20,845 nucleotides of DNA from a virus. The stretch lies in IMG/VR virus record IMGVR_UViG_3300049255_000177, positions 1-20,845 of that record. One strand, 5' to 3'. The notes below the pieces were generated by a model. That model was not told where the DNA came from. It worked only from the letters and a program-made list of their open reading frames with translations, and did not search any database. Positions 7,547 to 20,845 of this stretch are shown here, piece by piece. Numbering within the stretch: the stretch's first letter is position 1; each line of letters opens with the position of its first letter. A program made the translations under genes and the position numbers.

Positions 7547-9088
7547 CTAGGGATCGTAGATCGGGCGAGGAGCATCATGGCCGCCCTCCCCGTCCTGTCG
7601 GATGAACCGGCCCTCCACGGGACCGATACCCTCCACCGTCAGCGCGGCGTATTCGTCGGCCTCCACCACATGGCTGAACCGGTTCTTTTCCGGGCTCAGC
7701 CCGACCACCTGGCCGCGCCGTTTGTAGTGGAAGCCGCCGGCGTAGCCCTGGATCAGGCCGATGCAATCCGGATCGATGATCTTGGCCGGCTCGCCGGGCC
7801 CCACGCTCTTGCGAAACAGCCGGTCAATGGCCGCCCGCCGATCCTTGGGCACATTGGTGGGGGCCAGCTGGGCTTCGATCCCCGTATAGTGCTGCAGGGC
7901 CTGGGCCGTGGTGAATTCGCTGGCCGCGTTGGCCCCGCCGGCGGCGGGATCCAGGCACAGCATGGCGCCGGGCGCATGCTGGAAGCGGGTTTCGATGATG
8001 CGCCGGATCTCGCCGCCCAGCTCCTCCGTGGTCATCTGGCCGTCGGGCAGGTAGATCTCCGCCAGGGTGCGCCATTGGCCCGAATAGGCGCGTTGGCTGA
8101 AGGTCGCGGCCGGGATCATGGCGTTGGACCCGGCGTCGATGCCCACATAGACCGGCGAGAAGCGATCGACCTCCAGGGAGCGGATCGCCACATGGCGGTC
8201 CTGGTCGAAATTGGGATGCACGGGTTGGCCGTGGCGGCCATAGCCCGGCCGATTGTTGATCATCCGGCCGATGTCATAGGCGTCCAGCTGGGTCGCCATG
8301 TGGGCGTAGTAGTCCGGCCTGATGCGGCGCAGATTGGCCATGTTCTCGGCATTGGCGGAGAAGCCCCCGGGCTGGCGAAACAGCCGGTCGGTGACCGGCG
8401 CCCGGCCGCCGTCGGGCATGCGCTTCAGATGGAACCGGGTGTGGTAGGCGGTGCCGATCATGGGGGCGTTGGCGTCGCCGAAGATCCCCGAATAGCCCGG
8501 TTCGCCGCCGTCCGGACGATCCTCGGGCTCGGGGTAGCGGCCGACGCGGTTGGATCCCAGCGACAGGATTTGCGGCAGGTCCGCGTTGGTGTCAGCTTCT
8601 GGCAGGTGGATCGCGGTGAACTCGAACCCCCGGAAGAAGTCCTCGATATCCAGGTCGTTGACGGCGCGGAACAGGGTCTCGACATGCAGGCGCGAGGGCT
8701 GGCCCCGGATATTGACCACCATGTCGAAGGTGTGGTCCGCCGGGTCGCCGCGCGACCCGCGAAACTCGCCCATGGTCTGGGGATAGACCTTGAAGTAGCT
8801 GGGCATGATCGTGTCCCAGGCCCGCCGATAGGTTGGGCAGATGCACACGATCCGGGCTCGACGCACGCTGTCGCGGGGACTAGGCTGTTGCCAGGTTGCG
8901 ACGCGGACGTACCGGCGGCTTGAGGCCGTGGTCTTCCCACCCCCCGTAGGCCCCTCGATCATCGCGATGGGGGCCCGGCTGACCTCGTAGGCCTCGGCGA
9001 CGGGGCCGGCGAATGTCCAGCGCCGCAAATCCACCTGATCGCGCAGCTGCAAGCCTTTTTCCCCGACCCCGACCCGTTTTACGATCAC
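7547..9088 (-). CDS. Terminase large subunit (513 aa)
   Basis: This is the packaging motor ATPase and nuclease. Walker A is GPTGGGKT (46-53). A Walker-B-like strand FTAIHLPEAD (157-166) supplies the catalytic acid. The C-terminal RNase-H-like nuclease begins at VYVGIDAG (313-320), with Asp318 as the first metal ligand, and a second acidic strand MLCLDPAAGG follows. Length and order fit large terminases of BPP-1-like podoviruses. The start is GTG at 9088 and has a weak ribosome site. A slightly downstream TTG preceded by AAGG is possible. The gene follows the probable small subunit across a 209-bp gap with a strong hairpin. Confidence 0.9.
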   Translation of the reverse strand: MIVKRVGVGEKGLQLRDQVDLRRWTFAGPVAEAYEVSRAPIAMIEGPTGGGKTTASSRRYVRVATWQQPSPRDSVRRARIVCICPTYRRAWDTIMPSYFKVYPQTMGEFRGSRGDPADHTFDMVVNIRGQPSRLHVETLFRAVNDLDIEDFFRGFEFTAIHLPEADTNADLPQILSLGSNRVGRYPEPEDRPDGGEPGYSGIFGDANAPMIGTAYHTRFHLKRMPDGGRAPVTDRLFRQPGGFSANAENMANLRRIRPDYYAHMATQLDAYDIGRMINNRPGYGRHGQPVHPNFDQDRHVAIRSLEVDRFSPVYVGIDAGSNAMIPAATFSQRAYSGQWRTLAEIYLPDGQMTTEELGGEIRRIIETRFQHAPGAMLCLDPAAGGANAASEFTTAQALQHYTGIEAQLAPTNVPKDRRAAIDRLFRKSVGPGEPAKIIDPDCIGLIQGYAGGFHYKRRGQVVGLSPEKNRFSHVVEADEYAALTVEGIGPVEGRFIRQDGEGGHDAPRPIYDP

Positions 9089-9297: not shown

Positions 9298-9846
9298 TTA
9301 GGGCTGGCCGTCCGACTGGCCCTGTCCGACTGGCCGACCACCCGTTGGCAAATCGTCAACGATTTCAATGGGCGCGTCGTCGTCGAAGGACAGCAGGCCG
9401 GCGGCGCCGCTGGCCTGGCCCTCGGGGATCATGAACGCCATGGCCGGCGGCTTGGCCTTGCTCTCGGCGGCCTGCGGCTGGCGCTGGTGGATGTAGGGCA
9501 TGAGCTCCACCCGCTCCCGGGCCAGCAGGACCCAGCCCTCGGCGCGCGAGATGCCGAGGGCCTTGGCCAGCAACGCCGCCTTGACCAGCATCGCCAGCGT
9601 CACGGCGTCCAGCCCCAGGTCGACGATCTGGAGCTCCGCCGCCAGCGCCTTGGCCTTTTTGAGGTCCGCGGGCTTGACCATGGCCAGCTCGGCCGCCTGC
9701 TGACCGGGCGTCATCCCGCCATAGGTCGCCTCGACCCACCGCGCCAGGTCCGCCGACCGCCGATTGCGCGCCCCATGCGGCCGCCCCCGACGCCGCATTG
9801 GGGCCGGCTGGGCGAGGTCGAGGGAGGGCTGGGCGGCATCGGTCAT
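9298..9846 (-). CDS. Probable terminase small subunit (182 aa)
   Basis: It is encoded immediately upstream of the large terminase, where the DNA-recognition subunit is expected. The N-terminus carries a basic AT-hook-like segment, RRRGRPHGARNRRSADLARW (about 18-37). A helical region follows (MTPGQQAAELAMVKP...LKKAKALAAELQ) with a central HTH-like core. The C-terminus is acidic and low-complexity. I see no strict family signature, so the name rests on position, size and the basic helical N-terminus. The ATG at 9846 has no good Shine-Dalgarno. Only 19 bp separate it from the first heptamer of the symmetric array, so the array probably lies in its promoter/leader. Confidence 0.58.
   Translation of the reverse strand: MTDAAQPSLDLAQPAPMRRRGRPHGARNRRSADLARWVEATYGGMTPGQQAAELAMVKPADLKKAKALAAELQIVDLGLDAVTLAMLVKAALLAKALGISRAEGWVLLARERVELMPYIHQRQPQAAESKAKPPAMAFMIPEGQASGAAGLLSFDDDAPIEIVDDLPTGGRPVGQGQSDGQP
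9782..9803 (+). repeat. 22-bp direct repeat, copy 1
   Basis: It is identical to 14615-14636 (starts CGCCCCCGACGCC, ends CATTGGGG). This copy lies in the terminase small gene and encodes part of the basic PMRRRGR segment. Similarity stops abruptly on both sides. Confidence 0.8.
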
Positions 9847-9865
9847 TGGTGGCGATTATTTTAGA

Positions 9866-10119
9866 GGGTTCTGCAGGGTTCTGCCCAGGGTTCTGTCATT
9901 TGTTCCGCCTTTTCCAGGCCTTAGACCTTAGAGAACCCATAGAACCCATAGAACCCTATTATCCTCATGTGTGCGTGAGCAATACGAGGCGCCAAGCCCG
10001 ATGCCGCGCGCGTACAGGAGGGGCGACAGGGTTCTATGGGTTCTATGGGTTCTGTGCGGCCTAAGCCGCTGATCTTGCTGGCCGAATGGCAGAACCCGGG
10101 CAGAACCCGGGCAGAACCC
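9866..10119. repeat. Symmetric array of twelve GGGTTCT/AGAACCC heptamers
   Basis: GGGTTCT starts at 9866, 9876 and 9888. AGAACCC starts at 9932, 9941 and 9950. GGGTTCT starts again at 10029, 10038 and 10047. AGAACCC starts at 10091, 10102 and 10113. The four triplets mirror each other exactly around 9992.5: outer triplets span 29 bp, inner triplets 25 bp, and both outer gaps are 37 bp. The inner triplets form a perfect 26-bp inverted repeat (9932-9957 and 10028-10053). No convincing gene covers the region. It has iteron or operator character and sits between the leftward late genes and rightward early genes. Candidate roles are replication origin, control region or packaging site. Confidence 0.92.
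9959..9967 (+). promoter_or_regulatory. DnaA-box-like 9-mer in the centre of the array
   Basis: TTATCCTCA differs from the consensus DnaA box TTATCCACA at one position. It lies in the central gap of the heptamer array. A single 8/9 match is weak by itself, but its position supports an origin hypothesis. Confidence 0.4.
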
Positions 10120-10233
10120 TCCGGCCGTCTGGCTTCGCCAACTTCATGCCCTCGAAGTGGAGGGTCGGGGTCGGGCCAAACGCCGCGAACCCTGTGTCTC
10201 ATGTCAATGGGTCGGGGCGCAAGCGCGGGGCGG
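10120..10233. other. Gap between array and early promoter
   Basis: This stretch of about 115 bp lies between the last heptamer and the early promoter. I see no gene or further heptamer in it. Confidence 0.3.
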
Positions 10234-10315: not shown

Positions 10316-10468
10316 ATGGCTCTCGATCGCTCGGAAATCGCCCGCGCCCTGGCCAAGGCCATCGCTTACAAGCAATGCGCCAAGCAGGAAGACGCGGAGG
10401 CCTGGGCCCGGCGACTGGTCGAGCTGCTGGAATGCGCCGAAATCCTGGCGCCGGCTGGGGAGCGCTGA
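10316..10468 (+). CDS. Small early protein (50 aa)
   Basis: This short gene starts at ATG 10316 behind a GGAAAGGA ribosome site and ends at TGA 10466-10468. The product begins MALDRSEIARALAKAIAYKQ and is a single amphipathic helical unit with two Cys residues (positions 21 and 40). It is the first gene after the early promoter, and the next gene starts 4 bp after its stop. Third positions are GC-rich like its neighbours, supporting real coding. I do not recognise the family. Size and position suggest an early host-takeover or regulatory peptide. Confidence 0.6.
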   Translation: MALDRSEIARALAKAIAYKQCAKQEDAEAWARRLVELLECAEILAPAGER

Positions 10469-10471
10469 GCC

Positions 10472-12605: not shown

Positions 12606-14516
12606 CTACGCCTCCAGCGCCTCAGCCAACTTGATGAACATGCCCTTGAACTTCTTGTCCAAGCCCTTGTCGCACCCGCCGTTGGTGAACAGATGTTTCG
12701 GCATCTGCCTCAACACCCCGGCCCAGGGTCCGGGCGTGGCCAGGCGGCCGGCCCAGGGCGAGCCGGCGAACAGGGCGTTCAGGCCTGGATGCACGGTCGG
12801 CACGAACAGCCGGGCCGTGGAAAAGTCCTTCACCACATCGTCCGCCGCGAAGCTGATCGACAGCCCCACCTGGGGCAAATACTTCTCCACGTCGTCGATA
12901 TGGCTGGGGGTTGTCTGCCAGGCCTCCAGCAACTCCCACACGCTCTTCTTGGAATTCGTGCGCCACACGTCCGGCTGTTGCTTCAACATCAGGTCGAAAC
13001 ACCGCCGCCAGGTCTTGGTGCGCGTGGCCGTCTCGTTCAGCTGATCGGCGCGCAGCCATGCGGCCCAGTGCTCCAGCTCGCCGGCGTCGGGCATGGCCTC
13101 CGACAGGGCCACATGGCAGCCGGCGGCCAGGGCGCCGAAGGTGTCGGCCGATCGGTCCTCATGTCCCGCGGCGATCAGCATCTCGCGCATGGCGTCGCGC
13201 AGCCGATCCCAGCGCGACCGGTCGCCCTCCATCTCGCACCACTTGAACATGCGGCGCAGCAGCTGGCGGCCCACCGCCTGGGCCAGCTTGGCCTCGCGCA
13301 GGCCCAGCTCCTTCAGCACGTCCACGCCCCGCTCGCCGGCCCGCGCCGGCGGCCGTTCGCGCATCATCAGCACGGCCATGCGGCTGGCGTCCTGGGCGTC
13401 CATGGCGGGCAGGGCGATCGAGCTGAACAGGAAGCTCGACATCACCGAAAATTCCTGGCCCACGCCATCCTTGCCGCCCCTCTGCATCTTGTCGCCGGAA
13501 TAGGCGATGCGGGCCAGCTCCAGGATCTTGTCCGTGGTGCGCGTATCGGCCTTGGCCTCCAGCTCGTCGACCATCACGGCCACGCTGTCCTGCCGCACCT
13601 TCTGATAGATCCCCGCCTGCGTGGTGTTGCTGGTCGACAGCAGCGCCCCGTTCATGATCCAGCGCAGCAGCTTCTGCAGGGTCGATTTGCCCGCCCCCTC
13701 GGTGCCCACCACATAGACCACCGGCCGCTGCTCCAGGCCGCCGCCGACCATGGCCGTCATCAGCCAGCCCAGCGCCAGGCGCGCGTCCATCTCGCCCCGG
13801 TCCCAGTTCCAGCTCTGCAGGGCCTGCAGCAACAGATCGCCCGGCGAGCCATCGCCGGCCTTCTCGTATCGCTCGCTGGGGCGGCCGATCCGGGGCCGGC
13901 CGGGATAGATATATTCGCCATGCTCGCCCGGCGGCTTCCATTTGCCGCCCACCATCACCGCGTCGCCGGCGTGATAGATCAGGCCGCCGTTGTCGTCGCG
14001 CCACGCGCCCCGCCCGCGCACCCGGTCCTCCAGCTCGAAGGCGCCCTTATAGGCGCAGGCCGCGAACAGATCCTGGCGCGCCTCCTCGGCCGCCCAGTTC
14101 TTCACCATCGGGCTCTCGCCCTTGTTGCGCGGCATGGTCCACTGCGGCCAGGCCCAGCACAGATACAGCGGCCGGCCCTTGAACAGGGCGTCGATGTGGC
14201 CCTTGCCGGCGTTCGGCGCCAGGGTGTGCACCTCGCCCAAGGTATTGAGGAAGTAGAAGGTTTCGCCGAGGGTCCCCAGCGGGGTGACGGGGCAGTTTTG
14301 CGGCAGCCCCGTGCGCCGGTCCACAAACCCCGCGCCGCGCCATTGGCCGGGCTCGATCGTCTCCTCCGGCTCGCCCCGCTTGGCCACGTTCATGGGACAC
14401 CCCTTGGGCGCATCGGCCAGGGCCTGCTGGCGCAGGCTCAGCACCGCCTCGGCGTCGTCCTCGAAGGTGGGGAACGCCGCGGCGATCTCGTCGAAGGGAC
14501 TAAGGGACTGGGTCAA
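12606..14516 (-). CDS. Phage replicative helicase, AAA+/SF3-like ATPase (636 aa)
   Basis: This is a probable DNA helicase of the replication module. From the proposed start, Walker A is GTEGAGKST (about 271-279) and Walker B is VAVMVDELEA (about 312-321). They are followed by a sensor-like SSFLFSSIALPAM segment and an arginine-rich stretch. The N-terminal 250 residues may be a primase-coupling region. No zinc finger or AEP primase motif was found. I place the start at TTG 14516 because it overlaps the methyltransferase stop as TTGA, as other genes in this operon do. An open frame to 14648 exists but reads through the methyltransferase. The primase lies two genes upstream, so primase and helicase are separate polypeptides. 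Confidence 0.75.
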   Translation of the reverse strand: MTQSLSPFDEIAAAFPTFEDDAEAVLSLRQQALADAPKGCPMNVAKRGEPEETIEPGQWRGAGFVDRRTGLPQNCPVTPLGTLGETFYFLNTLGEVHTLAPNAGKGHIDALFKGRPLYLCWAWPQWTMPRNKGESPMVKNWAAEEARQDLFAACAYKGAFELEDRVRGRGAWRDDNGGLIYHAGDAVMVGGKWKPPGEHGEYIYPGRPRIGRPSERYEKAGDGSPGDLLLQALQSWNWDRGEMDARLALGWLMTAMVGGGLEQRPVVYVVGTEGAGKSTLQKLLRWIMNGALLSTSNTTQAGIYQKVRQDSVAVMVDELEAKADTRTTDKILELARIAYSGDKMQRGGKDGVGQEFSVMSSFLFSSIALPAMDAQDASRMAVLMMRERPPARAGERGVDVLKELGLREAKLAQAVGRQLLRRMFKWCEMEGDRSRWDRLRDAMREMLIAAGHEDRSADTFGALAAGCHVALSEAMPDAGELEHWAAWLRADQLNETATRTKTWRRCFDLMLKQQPDVWRTNSKKSVWELLEAWQTTPSHIDDVEKYLPQVGLSISFAADDVVKDFSTARLFVPTVHPGLNALFAGSPWAGRLATPGPWAGVLRQMPKHLFTNGGCDKGLDKKFKGMFIKLAEALEA

Positions 14517-15103
14517 GCAACGCTCGCGAACAGGCCCCCGGCGGCCGCCTGGGCCGCTGGATTGATCCAAAGGACCTCGGTGCGAGGCCGTGCGCCATCG
14601 GCCAGTGCTTGCATCGCCCCCGACGCCGCATTGGGGGCACGTCGCCATCCGGCAAGCGCGCCGTCGTATAGCTCCGAGGCATAACCACTGATCACGATCA
14701 TGGAGCTCGAGCGAATGGCCCAGTCGAGCATCTCGCCATGCTGGCCGTCATCCATCTCGTGCTTGTAGGCGTGCTTCAGCGCTCCCTCGACGCGCTTTTT
14801 GCTGCGGCTGTTATGTACATAGGGAGGGTCCAGATAGATCAGCGCGCCGTCTCCATCGAACCGCTGCGCCACCGACAGGCCCGGGCGGTTCTCGATCACG
14901 ACGCCCTGGAGCAGGTCGCAAATGGCCAGCAGCGCGGCCGGCATCCCTGTCCAGTCCAGCGCCGGATGTTTGCCGCTCCGGTCGCTGTTGGCCCGAAAGG
15001 GCTCGACATAGGTGCGATGCTGCGGGAAGTGCGCCACGATCCATAGCGCGAGCCGCCACTTTCCGCCCATATAGCGGAGCGCTGGACGGTTTAGGGAGCT
15101 CAT
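14513..15103 (-). CDS. DNA adenine methyltransferase, D12 class, internally deleted (196 aa)
   Basis: D12 (Dam-type) enzymes transfer a methyl group from S-adenosylmethionine to adenine N6. The N-terminus is typical (YMGGKWRLALWI..FPQHRTYVEPF). So are the catalytic DPPY (about 92-95), the SGYASELYD strand and RTEVLWINP near the C-terminus. In normal members, EPF continues into GGG..., the SAM-binding loop, followed by a ND(L) region and then a GFRANS.RSG segment. Here EPF joins RANSDRSG directly, so about 80-100 residues including motif I are missing, while the frame stays intact. Usual length is near 270-290. Activity is doubtful. It has an ATGA overlap with the primase gene. Confidence 0.8.
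   Translation of the reverse strand: MSSLNRPALRYMGGKWRLALWIVAHFPQHRTYVEPFRANSDRSGKHPALDWTGMPAALLAICDLLQGVVIENRPGLSVAQRFDGDGALIYLDPPYVHNSRSKKRVEGALKHAYKHEMDDGQHGEMLDWAIRSSSMIVISGYASELYDGALAGWRRAPNAASGAMQALADGARPRTEVLWINPAAQAAAGGLFASVA
14615..14636 (+). repeat. 22-bp direct repeat, copy 2
   Basis: It is identical to 9782-9803 but here lies in the methyltransferase gene in a different reading frame (encoding PNAASGA). It falls in a segment that looks inserted relative to the usual family spacing before ADGARPRTEVLW. It is also a weak hairpin (GCCCCC...GGGGGC, 14616-14638). Confidence 0.8.
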
Positions 15104-16215
15104 CCGGCCCTCGCCCAATCGTTGAAATCGCTGCCAACCGCGCTGGCCACCACGAACACCGGCCGGCCCTTGGCCAGCTTGCGCCAATGCGCCTCCACCC
15201 GCGCGAACGCGGCCCGGGCGCCGGCGCCGTAGTCGTTCTCGGCCATCAGCACCACGGCGCTGGCGCATTCGGGCCAGTCCAGCAGGCCCATGAACGACAG
15301 GCTGCCCGCCGCCCACACGCGATAGTGCGGCAGGACGCAGGCCGCGGTCAGGCAGGTCTCGATGCCCTCGCCGATCGCGAGCGGATCGCGCCGGCCGACC
15401 TTGGCCGCCGCGCTCGGCGACAGGCCGCTGGGCCCGCTGGCCAGCCTGATCGCCGCGCCGCGCACCGGCCCGATCATCAGCTTGGGCTTGGCCATATCGG
15501 CCTTGCCGCTGCCATCCGGCTTCAGATAGGTGCGGTGCAGCCCCACCACGGCCGACCCGCGCGTCATGGCGCTCACCATCACATGGCGCCAGGTCTTCAC
15601 CTCGCCCGTGGTCTGGTTGACGTACTCCACATGCTCGGCCCAGCGCAGCGCGCCGGGCATGGCCCTCAGCCGCTCCAGGGGCAGGCCGCGCGCGTGGCGC
15701 AGGTAGTGCTCCGCCGGCGTGCCGGCGATCGGCGGCAAGGTCAGCCACAGGGCGAACAGATGGGCGGAATTGGCCTCGTCGTCCTCCCGCGCCTTGGCCT
15801 CGGCCGCCAGGTGATCCAGCCGGCGGCGCTCCTGTTCGGCGGCGATGGCCCCGCGCCGGCGCGGCGCGTCCGCGCGGCCCTGGCGGTCCAGGTTCAGGAA
15901 ATCCACCGCCCACCAATAGGTGTCGATCTTGCTCCTCAGCCCCTCGACCCCGGCGATCAGGTCGAACACGTCGCCCTGGGCGCCCGTGGCATAGTCCTTC
16001 CACGCGCCCTTGCGGTCGGCGTCCTTCCAGATCACGAAGCTGCCCGCCTTGCGGTCCGCCCGCATGGGGTTGATCGGAAAGATGCGCCGCCCGTCGCCCG
16101 GGCCGGGCAGATCGTGCTTCAGGTTCAGCCGATCCAGCAGCGCCGTCAGGTCTCCCTGCAACCGCGTGCGGATCTCGCCCCAGTCGTAGGGCAGGGGCGC
16201 GCGTTCGGCGGTCAT
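15100..16215 (-). CDS. Toprim primase (371 aa)
   Basis: This is a probable DNA primase that makes primers for phage replication. Residues 1-110 resemble the N-terminal region of Toprim_3/DUF7146-type phage primases (RIFPIN...GSFVIWKD...WKDYATGAQGDVFDLIAG). The Toprim core shows GEGIET (282-287) with the catalytic Glu, then VVLMAENDYGAG (321-332), where the DxD motif reads E-N-D, and FND near the end. The ATG at 16215 is chosen: it overlaps the previous stop as ATGA and has GGAG 8 nt upstream. A GTG at 16221 would sit too close to that site. The helicase is encoded two genes downstream. Confidence 0.82.
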   Translation of the reverse strand: MTAERAPLPYDWGEIRTRLQGDLTALLDRLNLKHDLPGPGDGRRIFPINPMRADRKAGSFVIWKDADRKGAWKDYATGAQGDVFDLIAGVEGLRSKIDTYWWAVDFLNLDRQGRADAPRRRGAIAAEQERRRLDHLAAEAKAREDDEANSAHLFALWLTLPPIAGTPAEHYLRHARGLPLERLRAMPGALRWAEHVEYVNQTTGEVKTWRHVMVSAMTRGSAVVGLHRTYLKPDGSGKADMAKPKLMIGPVRGAAIRLASGPSGLSPSAAAKVGRRDPLAIGEGIETCLTAACVLPHYRVWAAGSLSFMGLLDWPECASAVVLMAENDYGAGARAAFARVEAHWRKLAKGRPVFVVASAVGSDFNDWARAG

Positions 16216-16427
16216 AGCCACAGCTCCAGCGCGGCGCGGGCGATTTCATCGCTCCATTCCGAAAGCGCGTTGGCGACGTCCAGGGGCGGACAGAGCGCGA
16301 TCTGCTGGCGCACGCTGGCGCGCAGCACGGCCCAGGCCGCCGCCTTCGCGCCCCGGTCGGGGGCCAGCTGCTGCACCGTATCGTGCACCAGCCGATCGGC
16401 CAGGGTGTCGATGGGCGGCGCTCTCAC
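16212..16427 (-). CDS. Hypothetical protein, GTG start (71 aa)
   Basis: This is a small helical protein (TLADRLVHDTVQQL..., RASVRQQIAL, LSEWSDEIARAALELWL) encoded between the pentamer-repeat ORF and the primase. The GTG at 16427 overlaps the preceding stop as GTGA, and its own stop overlaps the primase start as ATGA, so it is a translationally coupled link in the operon. No motif is recognised. Confidence 0.6.
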   Translation of the reverse strand: MRAPPIDTLADRLVHDTVQQLAPDRGAKAAAWAVLRASVRQQIALCPPLDVANALSEWSDEIARAALELWL

Positions 16428-16591
16428 GTCATGGCCTCCCGCTCGTCGTCCTCGCGGTCCTCATCGGCCGCGTCGAGCGCGTCCAGCCAGCCGATGGCCG
16501 TCTGCGCCACATATTCCAGCCAGGCGCGAAGAGCGGCTCGGCTCGGCTCGGCTCGGCTCGGCTCGGCTCGGAGGGCGTTTTCATGCGGCAT
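16424..16591 (-). CDS. Small ORF with seven CGAGC repeats (55 aa; possible start 16645)
   Basis: The coding-like part is the C-terminal LRAWLEYVAQTAIGWLDALDAADEDREDDER. The N-terminus is largely made by seven CGAGC pentamers (RAEPSRAEPSRA). In-frame starts are ATG 16591, which overlaps the DnaA-like gene by 11 bp, or ATG 16645, which overlaps by 65 bp and follows GGAT. The ATG that forms an ATGA overlap with the upstream stop (16584) is out of frame at seven repeats. The product has no recognised domain beyond a likely helical core. Frame dependence on repeat number suggests phase variation. Confidence 0.5.
   Translation of the reverse strand: MPHENALRAEPSRAEPSRAALRAWLEYVAQTAIGWLDALDAADEDREDDEREAMT
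16536..16570 (-). repeat. Seven tandem CGAGC pentamers
   Basis: Seven exact units (GCTCG on the plus strand) lie within the 5' part of a small ORF. The unit length is not a multiple of three, so a gain or loss of one unit shifts the reading frame. Confidence 0.9.
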
Positions 16592-17006
16592 TCGAAAACC
16601 GATCACGTTTGCGTGATCCTGGCTCGGCGTCGGATGAAGCGCCATTTTTCATCCGACGCGCCTGCGCCGCCAGCGACGCGGTCACCGTCACCCGCAGGCC
16701 CTCGGCCCGTTCCTCCAGCTCCACGTCGTCGGCCAGGGCCGCGCGCATCCGGGTGCAGTGGCTCTGCACCGTGTCCTTGTGCAGCCCCACATGGCGGCCG
16801 ATGGCGGCATAGCGCGCGCCGGTCAGCACCACCGCCAGGTGCAGCGCCATCTTGCGCGCCTCCCACACCGCCTTGGGCGGGCGGGGTCCGCGCCCCCGGC
16901 TGGGCGCCGTCAGGGCCTCGGGCGCCAGGTCATAGGCCGCCGAGGTCGCCAGCACCGCCGCCCGCCACGCCGCCGCGATCGGCCAGCGATATCGCCCGAT
17001 CGCCAT
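16581..17006 (-). CDS. DnaA domain-IV-like DNA-binding protein (141 aa)
   Basis: Residues about 50-90 (ARKMALHLAVVLTGARYAAIGRHVGLHKDTVQSHCTRMR) match the layout of the C-terminal DNA-binding domain of DnaA, which recognises DnaA boxes through a helix-turn-helix and basic loop. There is no ATPase domain, and 141 residues is far shorter than full DnaA. Standalone proteins of this kind occur in alphaproteobacterial prophages. GGAGG lies 8 nt before the ATG. It sits in the replication operon before the primase, so an initiator-loading or origin-recognition role is reasonable. A transcription factor is the alternative. Confidence 0.65.
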   Translation of the reverse strand: MAIGRYRWPIAAAWRAAVLATSAAYDLAPEALTAPSRGRGPRPPKAVWEARKMALHLAVVLTGARYAAIGRHVGLHKDTVQSHCTRMRAALADDVELEERAEGLRVTVTASLAAQARRMKNGASSDAEPGSRKRDRFSNAA

Positions 17007-17587: not shown

Positions 17588-17688
17588 TGTGGAATTTCCA
17601 TCCGGAAAAAGCATCCACGTCCGTGCCTCAAGCGCTTCGCGAATTTCGTCAACGACCTGGAACGGAATTATTTTCCACCCTGGGGGCT
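17588..17688. promoter_or_regulatory. Divergent immunity control region with TGGAA/TTCCA half-sites
   Basis: This intergenic region separates the Cro-like and CI-like genes. Inverted half-sites occur at 17590-17600 (TGGAATTTCCA), 17595-17608 (TTTCC/GGAAA) and 17658-17677 (TGGAA ... TTCCA). The last copy contains a GGAA-N5-TTCC core. These are candidate operators. Clear -35/-10 pairs are not evident on either strand. Confidence 0.55.
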
Positions 17689-18300
17689 ATGAAGCTCTCG
17701 GACATCCCCGCGCGCCTGCGCGTTCTCGGCCGCAGCCAGGCCGACCTGGCCCGACACCTGGACAATCTCGACCCCTCGTCCCTCACCAAGATGATCGCGG
17801 GCAAGGGGCGTCGCGTGCAGGCGCACGAAATCGCCAAGATCGAGGCGTTCTTCGGCGAGAAGCTGGAACTGGGCGACGGGCGCGCGCCACCGGAAATAGT
17901 GCCGCGCCGCCCCGTGCAGCGCCGCGTCCCCGTCTATGGCTACGCCGCTGCCGGCGGGATGGATCGCATAGCCTACGCCGATGACCAAGTGCTGGAGTGG
18001 CGCGAGCCGCCGCCGCTGTGGAGCGGCGCGGGCTTCCTGGCCTATGTGCGCCTATCGGGATCGAGCATGGAGCCCCGCTATTTCGCGGGCGAGCTGGCCG
18101 CCGTTATGCTTGGGGTAGAGCCGGCAAGAAACCAGGATTGCCTGATCGAGTTCGCCAACAATACCGCGCTGATCAAGACTTTCATCCGGCGCGGATCAGA
18201 TATCTTGGTTGCCACTCAATATAGTCCTCGCAAGGATTTAGAGTTTTCACTCAGAGATGTACGCGCGATACACGCGGTTTGGCGACCTGGGCTAATATAA
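17689..18300 (+). CDS. CI-like S24 repressor (203 aa)
   Basis: This is the lysogeny repressor, probably self-cleaving during the SOS response. Residues about 10-65 are a helix-turn-helix DNA-binding domain (LGRSQADLARHLDNLDPSSLTKMIAGKGRRV). The C-terminal half is a LexA/CI-type S24 peptidase: GYAAAGG supplies the Ala-Gly cleavage site, LSGSSMEPRYFAGE contains the catalytic Ser, and NTALIKTFI supplies the catalytic Lys. Full-length S24 repressors have about this size. The start at 17689 is used because upstream in-frame sequence crosses the control region and lacks repressor character. It is divergent from the Cro-like gene and faces a similar operator region at 18432-18467. Confidence 0.88.
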   Translation: MKLSDIPARLRVLGRSQADLARHLDNLDPSSLTKMIAGKGRRVQAHEIAKIEAFFGEKLELGDGRAPPEIVPRRPVQRRVPVYGYAAAGGMDRIAYADDQVLEWREPPPLWSGAGFLAYVRLSGSSMEPRYFAGELAAVMLGVEPARNQDCLIEFANNTALIKTFIRRGSDILVATQYSPRKDLEFSLRDVRAIHAVWRPGLI

Positions 18301-19704: not shown

Positions 19705-20016
19705 ATGAGGGCCGCCCTCGATATGGCCGAAACCGCCGCCGCCACGGGCTATAGCTGGGAGCGCTTTCGCCGCGTCTGGCGCGCCCTGCCGGGCTTTCCA
19801 GCCCCGATCAAGCGCCCCACCTTGTCCGGCCGGGGCGCCTACGCCTGGCGCGCCGAGAGCGTCGAGGCGTGGGTCAAGGCGCGCGAGAGCGCCCTGGGCG
19901 CCCGCTACGTCCAGCCCGTCGACATCGCCAACGACATCGAAGCCCCCCGGCGCGCCAACGCCGCCGCCATCGCCCGCCAGCGCGCCGCCCTCGGCCGCCT
20001 GATGCGCGGCGCCTGA
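19705..20016 (+). CDS. AlpA/excisionase-like HTH protein (103 aa)
   Basis: The N-terminal two thirds read as a MerR/AlpA/Xis-type winged HTH: AETAAATGYSWERFRRVWRALPGFPAPIKR, followed by GAYAWRAESVEAWVKAR. This is the typical GYS...W...GFP..I...Y.W....V..W pattern of phage excisionase and AlpA proteins. The C-terminal tail is Arg/Ala-rich. Such proteins control excision or late prophage genes. No integrase is in the window, so the partner may lie outside it. An alternative start at 19723 would leave the HTH intact. Confidence 0.7.
   Translation: MRAALDMAETAAATGYSWERFRRVWRALPGFPAPIKRPTLSGRGAYAWRAESVEAWVKARESALGARYVQPVDIANDIEAPRRANAAAIARQRAALGRLMRGA

Positions 20017-20079: not shown

Positions 20080-20845
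<766 letters not shown>

Follow-up and report, generated by a model that had tools for sequence, protein, structure and literature searches.

Twelve inverted heptamers beside the terminase genes of a phage: a probable iteron replication origin for a putatively self-loading D5-type helicase

The window, i.e. the whole stretch of DNA that was analysed, is a 20.8-kb fragment coding for TerL and a portal protein. An array of short repeats separates its leftward-transcribed late genes from small genes that run rightward; TerS starts immediately to the left of the array (at 9846). The relevant features are as follows.

7547-9088, minus strand: TerL, the query used for finding close relatives.
9298-9846, minus strand: TerS, assigned by position; close family members likewise have it next to the array.
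9866-9894, plus strand: iteron triplet 1 (outer, closest to TerS), GGGTTCT three times, at 9866, 9876 and 9888; spacing 10 and 12.
9895-9931, no strand: spacer of 37 bp in the putative left half-origin, with an AT content of about 51% (window, 31%).
9932-9956, minus strand: iteron triplet 2 (inner), AGAACCC three times, at 9932, 9941 and 9950; spacing 9.
9939-9968, no strand: the 30 bp with the highest AT content in the array (63%), overlapping triplet 2 and TATTATCCTCAT.
9957-10028, no strand: central spacer of 72 bp, partly GC-rich (GCGCGCG), with GCACACATG adjoining the inner triplet; relatives have a comparable GC-rich spacer.
10029-10053, plus strand: iteron triplet 3 (inner), GGGTTCT three times, at 10029, 10038 and 10047; spacing 9.
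10054-10090, no strand: spacer of 37 bp in the putative right half-origin, defined by sequence and geometry.
10062-10074, minus strand: IHF-like site GATCAGCGGCTTA, matching 7/9 of WATCAANNNNTTR, within a 17-bp motif (10059-10075) common to relatives.
10091-10119, minus strand: iteron triplet 4 (outer), AGAACCC three times, at 10091, 10102 and 10113; spacing 11.
12606-14648, minus strand: proposed initiator, a D5/SaPI5-type AAA+ helicase of 680 aa, conserved from about residue 50, with the 3' end of its gene toward the array.
15100-16221, minus strand: primase with DUF7146 and Toprim domains (PF23639, PF13362), the helicase's partner.

Two open reading frames cross the array, 9798-10064 (plus strand) and 9921-10202 (minus strand); their translations are repetitive (FYGFYGF/EPIEPIEP) and they look like by-products of the repeats rather than genes. 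No tRNA, tmRNA or Rfam RNA was found in the window. Repressor and HTH genes are present, and the phage is probably temperate, since it has an S24-type repressor and an excisionase-like gene (17647-18300 and 19705-20016). Two other repeats were observed, i.e. 7.6 copies, 100% identical, of a CGGCT pentamer at 16534-16571, within an open reading frame at 16424-16645 (minus strand), which is possibly a phase-variable tract, and some 35 copies of a GCGGCG hexamer at 20638-20845, which run to the contig end and are probably the reason that the assembly ends there. Within a small open reading frame region (10317-10469), the DNA at 10340-10451 is 73% identical to that of the distant phage MT835534, despite the TerL proteins sharing only 29%.

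All twelve exact copies of GGGTTCT/AGAACCC in the window lie inside 9866-10119, against an expectation of 1.73, and none of 100 dinucleotide shuffles reached twelve (maximum 5). In the terminase sense the layout is >>> 37 <<< 72 >>> 37 <<<, with the outer triplets spanning 29 bp and the inner triplets 25 bp, so bearing out the four alternating triplets, the spans and the 37-bp outer gaps of the original prediction, which had been made from the letters of the DNA. The inner triplets, each with one flanking base, do indeed form a perfect 26-bp inverted repeat (9932-9957 and 10028-10053), and complementarity between the longer arms, 9864-9957 and 10028-10121, is 73% across 94 nt. The proposal of a single centre at 9992.5 for all mirror positions holds for ten of the twelve heptamers; the middle pair of the outer triplets (9876 and 10102) is centred at 9992.0, as the spacing is 10/12 in the left triplet but 11/11 in the right one. 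The agreement of the two 37-bp gaps as reverse complements, put at about 20 of 37 positions, is exactly 20 of 37 when counted by eye. The ancient inverted duplication that was proposed on this basis is plausible, with the duplicated unit being a half-origin, i.e. two opposed triplets plus a 37-bp spacer, and with mirrored TTAG-ended IHF-like motifs in both spacers.

Close relatives, gathered via TerL (62-72% identity), have short-word clusters in alternating orientation immediately upstream of TerS, each with its own word, namely GGGTTCC (L124), CGATTG (L126), TGTTCT (L128), AGTTCCC (L130) and GGTTGC (L131); most words have a GTT-like core (GGTTC, GTTAC, GTTGC, ATTG). The heptamer clusters anticipated at the same locus in related phages are thus there in layout, but the word differs in each relative. 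The constant geometry and varying word suggest a binding protein that has diverged along with its sites. In these relatives the spacer between the last two clusters is AT-rich and that in the middle is GC-rich. Alignment of TerL against bacterial genomes found nothing, and a search of viral contigs for exact GGGTTCT triplets returned mostly unrelated tandem repeats, which were reused as a control set.

The spacers contain further conserved elements. The 17-bp motif, which is similar to the IHF consensus WATCAANNNNTTR, was found first in six relatives and recurs in the independent arrays of L169, L170 and L179 (0-1 of 200 shuffles); in a leave-one-out analysis of the window motif, 0/200 shuffles and 0/40 other segments scored as well. 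In the left spacer (9895-9931), CCAGGCCTTAG mirrors the IHF-like motif of the right spacer in degenerate form. Across arrays there are 31 matches of at least 8/9 to the IHF consensus, against 9.4 expected, a threshold of which the window site, at 7/9, falls short. Nearly all arrays contain one of the AT-richest 30-mers of their locus, an observation that is supportive only, as intergenic DNA is generally AT-richer; the values over 30 bp in most relatives' arrays are mostly 67-93%, compared with 63% in the window, where 0.13% of 30-mers are as AT-rich as 9939-9968. This stretch is a possible melting region, although both it and the IHF-like site are weaker in the window than in relatives. GC skew gave no consistent mark at the arrays. 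Sequence like GCACACATG lies beside an inner triplet in several members, including the window (reverse complement CACGCACACATGAGGATAATAGGG, 9957-10028), L190 (GCGCACACATGTAGAGGTATAGGG, 7570-7625) and L124 (CATGTGTGCGAGGG, 2119-2169), and could be a promoter or priming signal.

As to the protein that recognises the array, the originally proposed binders, the products of 16581-17006 and 19705-20016, are unsupported, and the best candidate is the helicase encoded at 12606-14648. In the window the array lies on the 3' side of the helicase gene, 2.5 kb from its end with small genes in between; it is assigned to the helicase because distant relatives keep an array beside the helicase gene. Viral loci with an array just 3' of that gene are L169, L170, L172, L174, L179 and MT835534. 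A single-protein helicase scan of viral contigs was unsuccessful; alignment of the helicase against bacterial genomes gave 21 loci, nearly all in Alphaproteobacteria. In 17 of these the array follows the helicase stop codon at a distance of between 40 bp and about 2 kb; L205, L206 and L208, which are among the 17, exceed most, not all, of 60 shuffles. Of the four loci without an array, three end within 1 kb and one (L200) is truly without; overall, the helicase relatives in which no array was detected are L171, L175, L177 and L200. The array is immediately 3' of the helicase gene in L169, L170, L172, L180, L181, L191-L193, L196-L198 and others. A Caulobacter hibisci prophage (L190) comes near the window layout, with 12 iterons of the word GGTTCT arranged >>> 36 <<< 52 >>> 37 <<<.

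Two plasmids are informative. The linear 8.2-kb plasmid paNv_CH14 (L180), with five annotated genes and no annotated terminase, has 12 iterons (at most one mismatch) directly 3' of its helicase gene, arranged >>>> 37 << 94 >> 37 <<<<; the circular plasmid paNv_CAN17 (L181) has, with a different word, <<<< 37 >> 94 << 37 >>>> in the same position, its terminase small subunit gene being 5.8 kb away from the array. Thus the two 37-bp spacers and the dyad of the window occur on autonomous plasmids, next to the one gene there that is recognisably for replication. In both plasmids, which are from Arsenophonus nasoniae, a protelomerase gene, a phage-type helicase and an iteron dyad occur together, a combination suggesting phage-derived replicons.

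The association was also found in the reciprocal direction. When 118 viral loci were picked by a GGGTTCT direct triplet alone, four had balanced two-orientation arrays, three of which (L071, L102 and L104, possibly related to one another and so not fully independent) lie about 330 bp past the 3' end of a gene for this helicase, at 52% identity. The detector flags the annotated crr of P4, the positive control, as --+++---+++-. Unrelated stretches, as negative controls, were mostly within the range of their shuffles; one (L150) came out a little above that range, and for this reason scores of 7 or below are not meaningful alone. From gene order, then, the array is seen to track the D5-type helicase, not the terminase.

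Arrays of a similar kind around TATATATATATTAG were observed in Vibrio phage VA-RY-3 (L156, 6793-7077, AGGATA) and Cronobacter phage Ss1 (L160, about 42040-42205 plus 1-75, ATCCCC), the primase-helicase of which is of another kind (phrog_3022); the layout may thus extend beyond this helicase family. Shorter inverted iteron pairs, sub-threshold in the detector, flank AT-rich DNA near the primase gene in BcepC6B (L157/L136, 1-98; CGATAGGGA) and BPP-1 (L158, 26610-26720; TTTGCCTCG) and are candidate origins.

Pfam left the helicase unnamed, with sub-threshold AAA matches only, and a sequence search of the PDB gave P-loop matches only. In alignments of five and ten helicase sequences the AAA+ core is conserved and is followed by a C-terminal region some 136 residues long (about residues 545-680 of the window protein). 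An AlphaFold2 model (mean pLDDT 78) has, by Foldseek against the PDB, the SaPI5 primase-helicase 7ola as its best match (E 1.4e-7), followed by MPXV E5, ASFV PrimPol and NrS-1; with modest TM-scores, about 0.4-0.5 by target, membership of the D5/AAA+ family is supported, by predicted fold only, and domain detail is not. Word similarity and helicase similarity are weakly correlated (Mantel p 0.001 for the C-terminal region, 0.008 for the core), a result confounded by ancestry and by the covariation of core and C terminus (r 0.86).

A pac or cos site, at which the small terminase would bind the heptamers and packaging would begin, was another option, and it fits with the location of the array, which in both the window and its close relatives is immediately upstream of TerS. 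Some pac phages, e.g. SPP1, are known to have repeats ahead of terS. The tie to the small terminase gene does not, however, hold more widely: the array follows the helicase gene, even on the plasmid without a terminase gene, and in Vibrio phage VA-RY-3 two oppositely transcribed genes part the array from the terminase genes, so that a packaging role appears improbable. A regulator-bound control region, either a two-sided operator or one for late promoters, would suit an array lying between leftward late and rightward small genes in a phage with repressor and HTH genes. It is quite improbable given that the array follows a helicase, not a regulator, that L126 has kept its array although the flanking genes on both sides share direction, and that 12 iterons, large spacers and AT-rich stretches are atypical of operators. 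The plasmid arrays, one of them without a terminase gene, and the variable transcription layout among relatives disfavour both of these originally listed options.

Each half of the array folds well as RNA (z -3.4 to -4.9), as would be expected of an RNA or cruciform structure in which the opposed triplets form a hairpin, but any inverted triplets fold in this way, on both strands. Moreover, L169 and L179 have six copies in each orientation, arranged around long spacers, an arrangement in which the same hairpins would be lost; this option, very improbable in our view, was put aside. GC-rich phage DNA often contains tandem repeats, but chance or mechanical repeat expansion without function is scarcely credible, as 0/100 shuffles matched the window and the geometry is conserved with unrelated words in phages, prophages and plasmids; this conservation had already refuted it.

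It is therefore very likely that the array is the phage's iteron replication origin, the option that the original prediction listed first, and that it would be bound by the phage's own, putatively self-loading helicase (12606-14648); helicase linkage, the plasmids and the relatives' arrays all lend this strong support. The twelve heptamers would constitute two half-origins, each of two opposed triplets plus a 37-bp spacer, parted by the 72-bp central spacer. The helicase may recognise the heptamers, probably via its C-terminal domain, with bending of the 37-bp spacer, possibly by host IHF, uniting the two opposed triplets, so that one hexamer could be seated on the six iterons of each half-origin. 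Two head-to-head hexamers would then melt the AT-rich stretch and the neighbouring Toprim primase would start synthesis, with replication being bidirectional.

Among 36 arrays with different words the median is 12 iterons, with 11-13 in 29 of the 36 (at most one mismatch, words hand-chosen); the internal spacers of the half-origins fall into two size groups, 32-39 and 47-49 bp, which differ by about one helical turn, and four-group arrays retain dyad symmetry. It may be, though we hold this tentatively, that iteron number encodes helicase stoichiometry, i.e. six iterons per mirrored half, two hexamers and one subunit per iteron; if so, the family would offer a ready-made set of orthogonal helicase-origin pairs across alphaproteobacterial phages. 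More generally, an origin of this type would provide a recognisable signature for phages without known origins and connect phage, satellite and plasmid replicons, and the many helicase-iteron pairs with different words would enable study of how a self-loading helicase recognises and opens its origin.

Comparison with characterised origins reveals that the original statement, that no known element has this layout, was too strong, since P4 crr/ori1 and SaPI/PICI origins are closely related in layout. Lambda O-type origins share with the array a phage setting, repeated initiator sites and AT-rich DNA; by contrast, they employ a separate origin-binding protein and loader, and their iterons are long, palindromic and inside the O gene. 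In P4, as in the window, type I iterons of about 8 bp occur in alternating groups, of 2-3 in P4; P4 crr has 35-bp and 88-bp spacers and lies 3' of the alpha gene, P4 ori1 has an AT-rich stretch, and the P4 initiator contains a helicase. Differences are that the P4 elements are divided between ori and crr, with no perfect 12-copy dyad, that the P4 word is GGTGAACA rather than GGGTTCT, that P4 alpha is a fusion of primase and helicase whereas the window has separate genes (15100-16221 and 12606-14648), and that P4 is a satellite.

In PICIs the origin lies 3' of rep and has an AT-rich region with a set of iterons on either side (PMC6092414), and SaPI Rep reads its iterons via a C-terminal domain, apparently as two hexamers (PMC7581432). 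The likeness extends to two iteron sets with AT-rich DNA between them, a self-loading helicase (putatively so in the window) encoded upstream, iterons that vary between elements (PMC6092414, PMC7581432), and SaPI5 primase-helicase as the best PDB match of the window helicase model, the counterpart of the D5/AAA+ initiator being recognised by fold only. Iteron sets around an AT-rich region are clear in most relatives, the window having two mirrored sets and a weak AT stretch over triplet 2. Unlike SaPI/PICI origins, which are immediately 3' of the initiator gene, the probable window origin is displaced 2.5 kb to the 3' side and adjoins terS; there are four alternating triplets rather than two sets, and the hosts of the arrays are complete tailed phages or prophages with their own capsid genes, the window element being a phage and not a PICI satellite since it encodes TerL and a portal protein. 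SCCmec Cch2, likewise a D5-type helicase, uses its C-terminal domain to bind iterons, arranged as direct repeats, downstream of its gene (PMC7581432), but its origin has only three 5-nt iterons (AAGTG) and no dyad array. The array would thus appear to be an iteron origin of the P4 and SaPI/PICI-like type, here in complete phages, many alphaproteobacterial prophages and small plasmids, with one helicase family.
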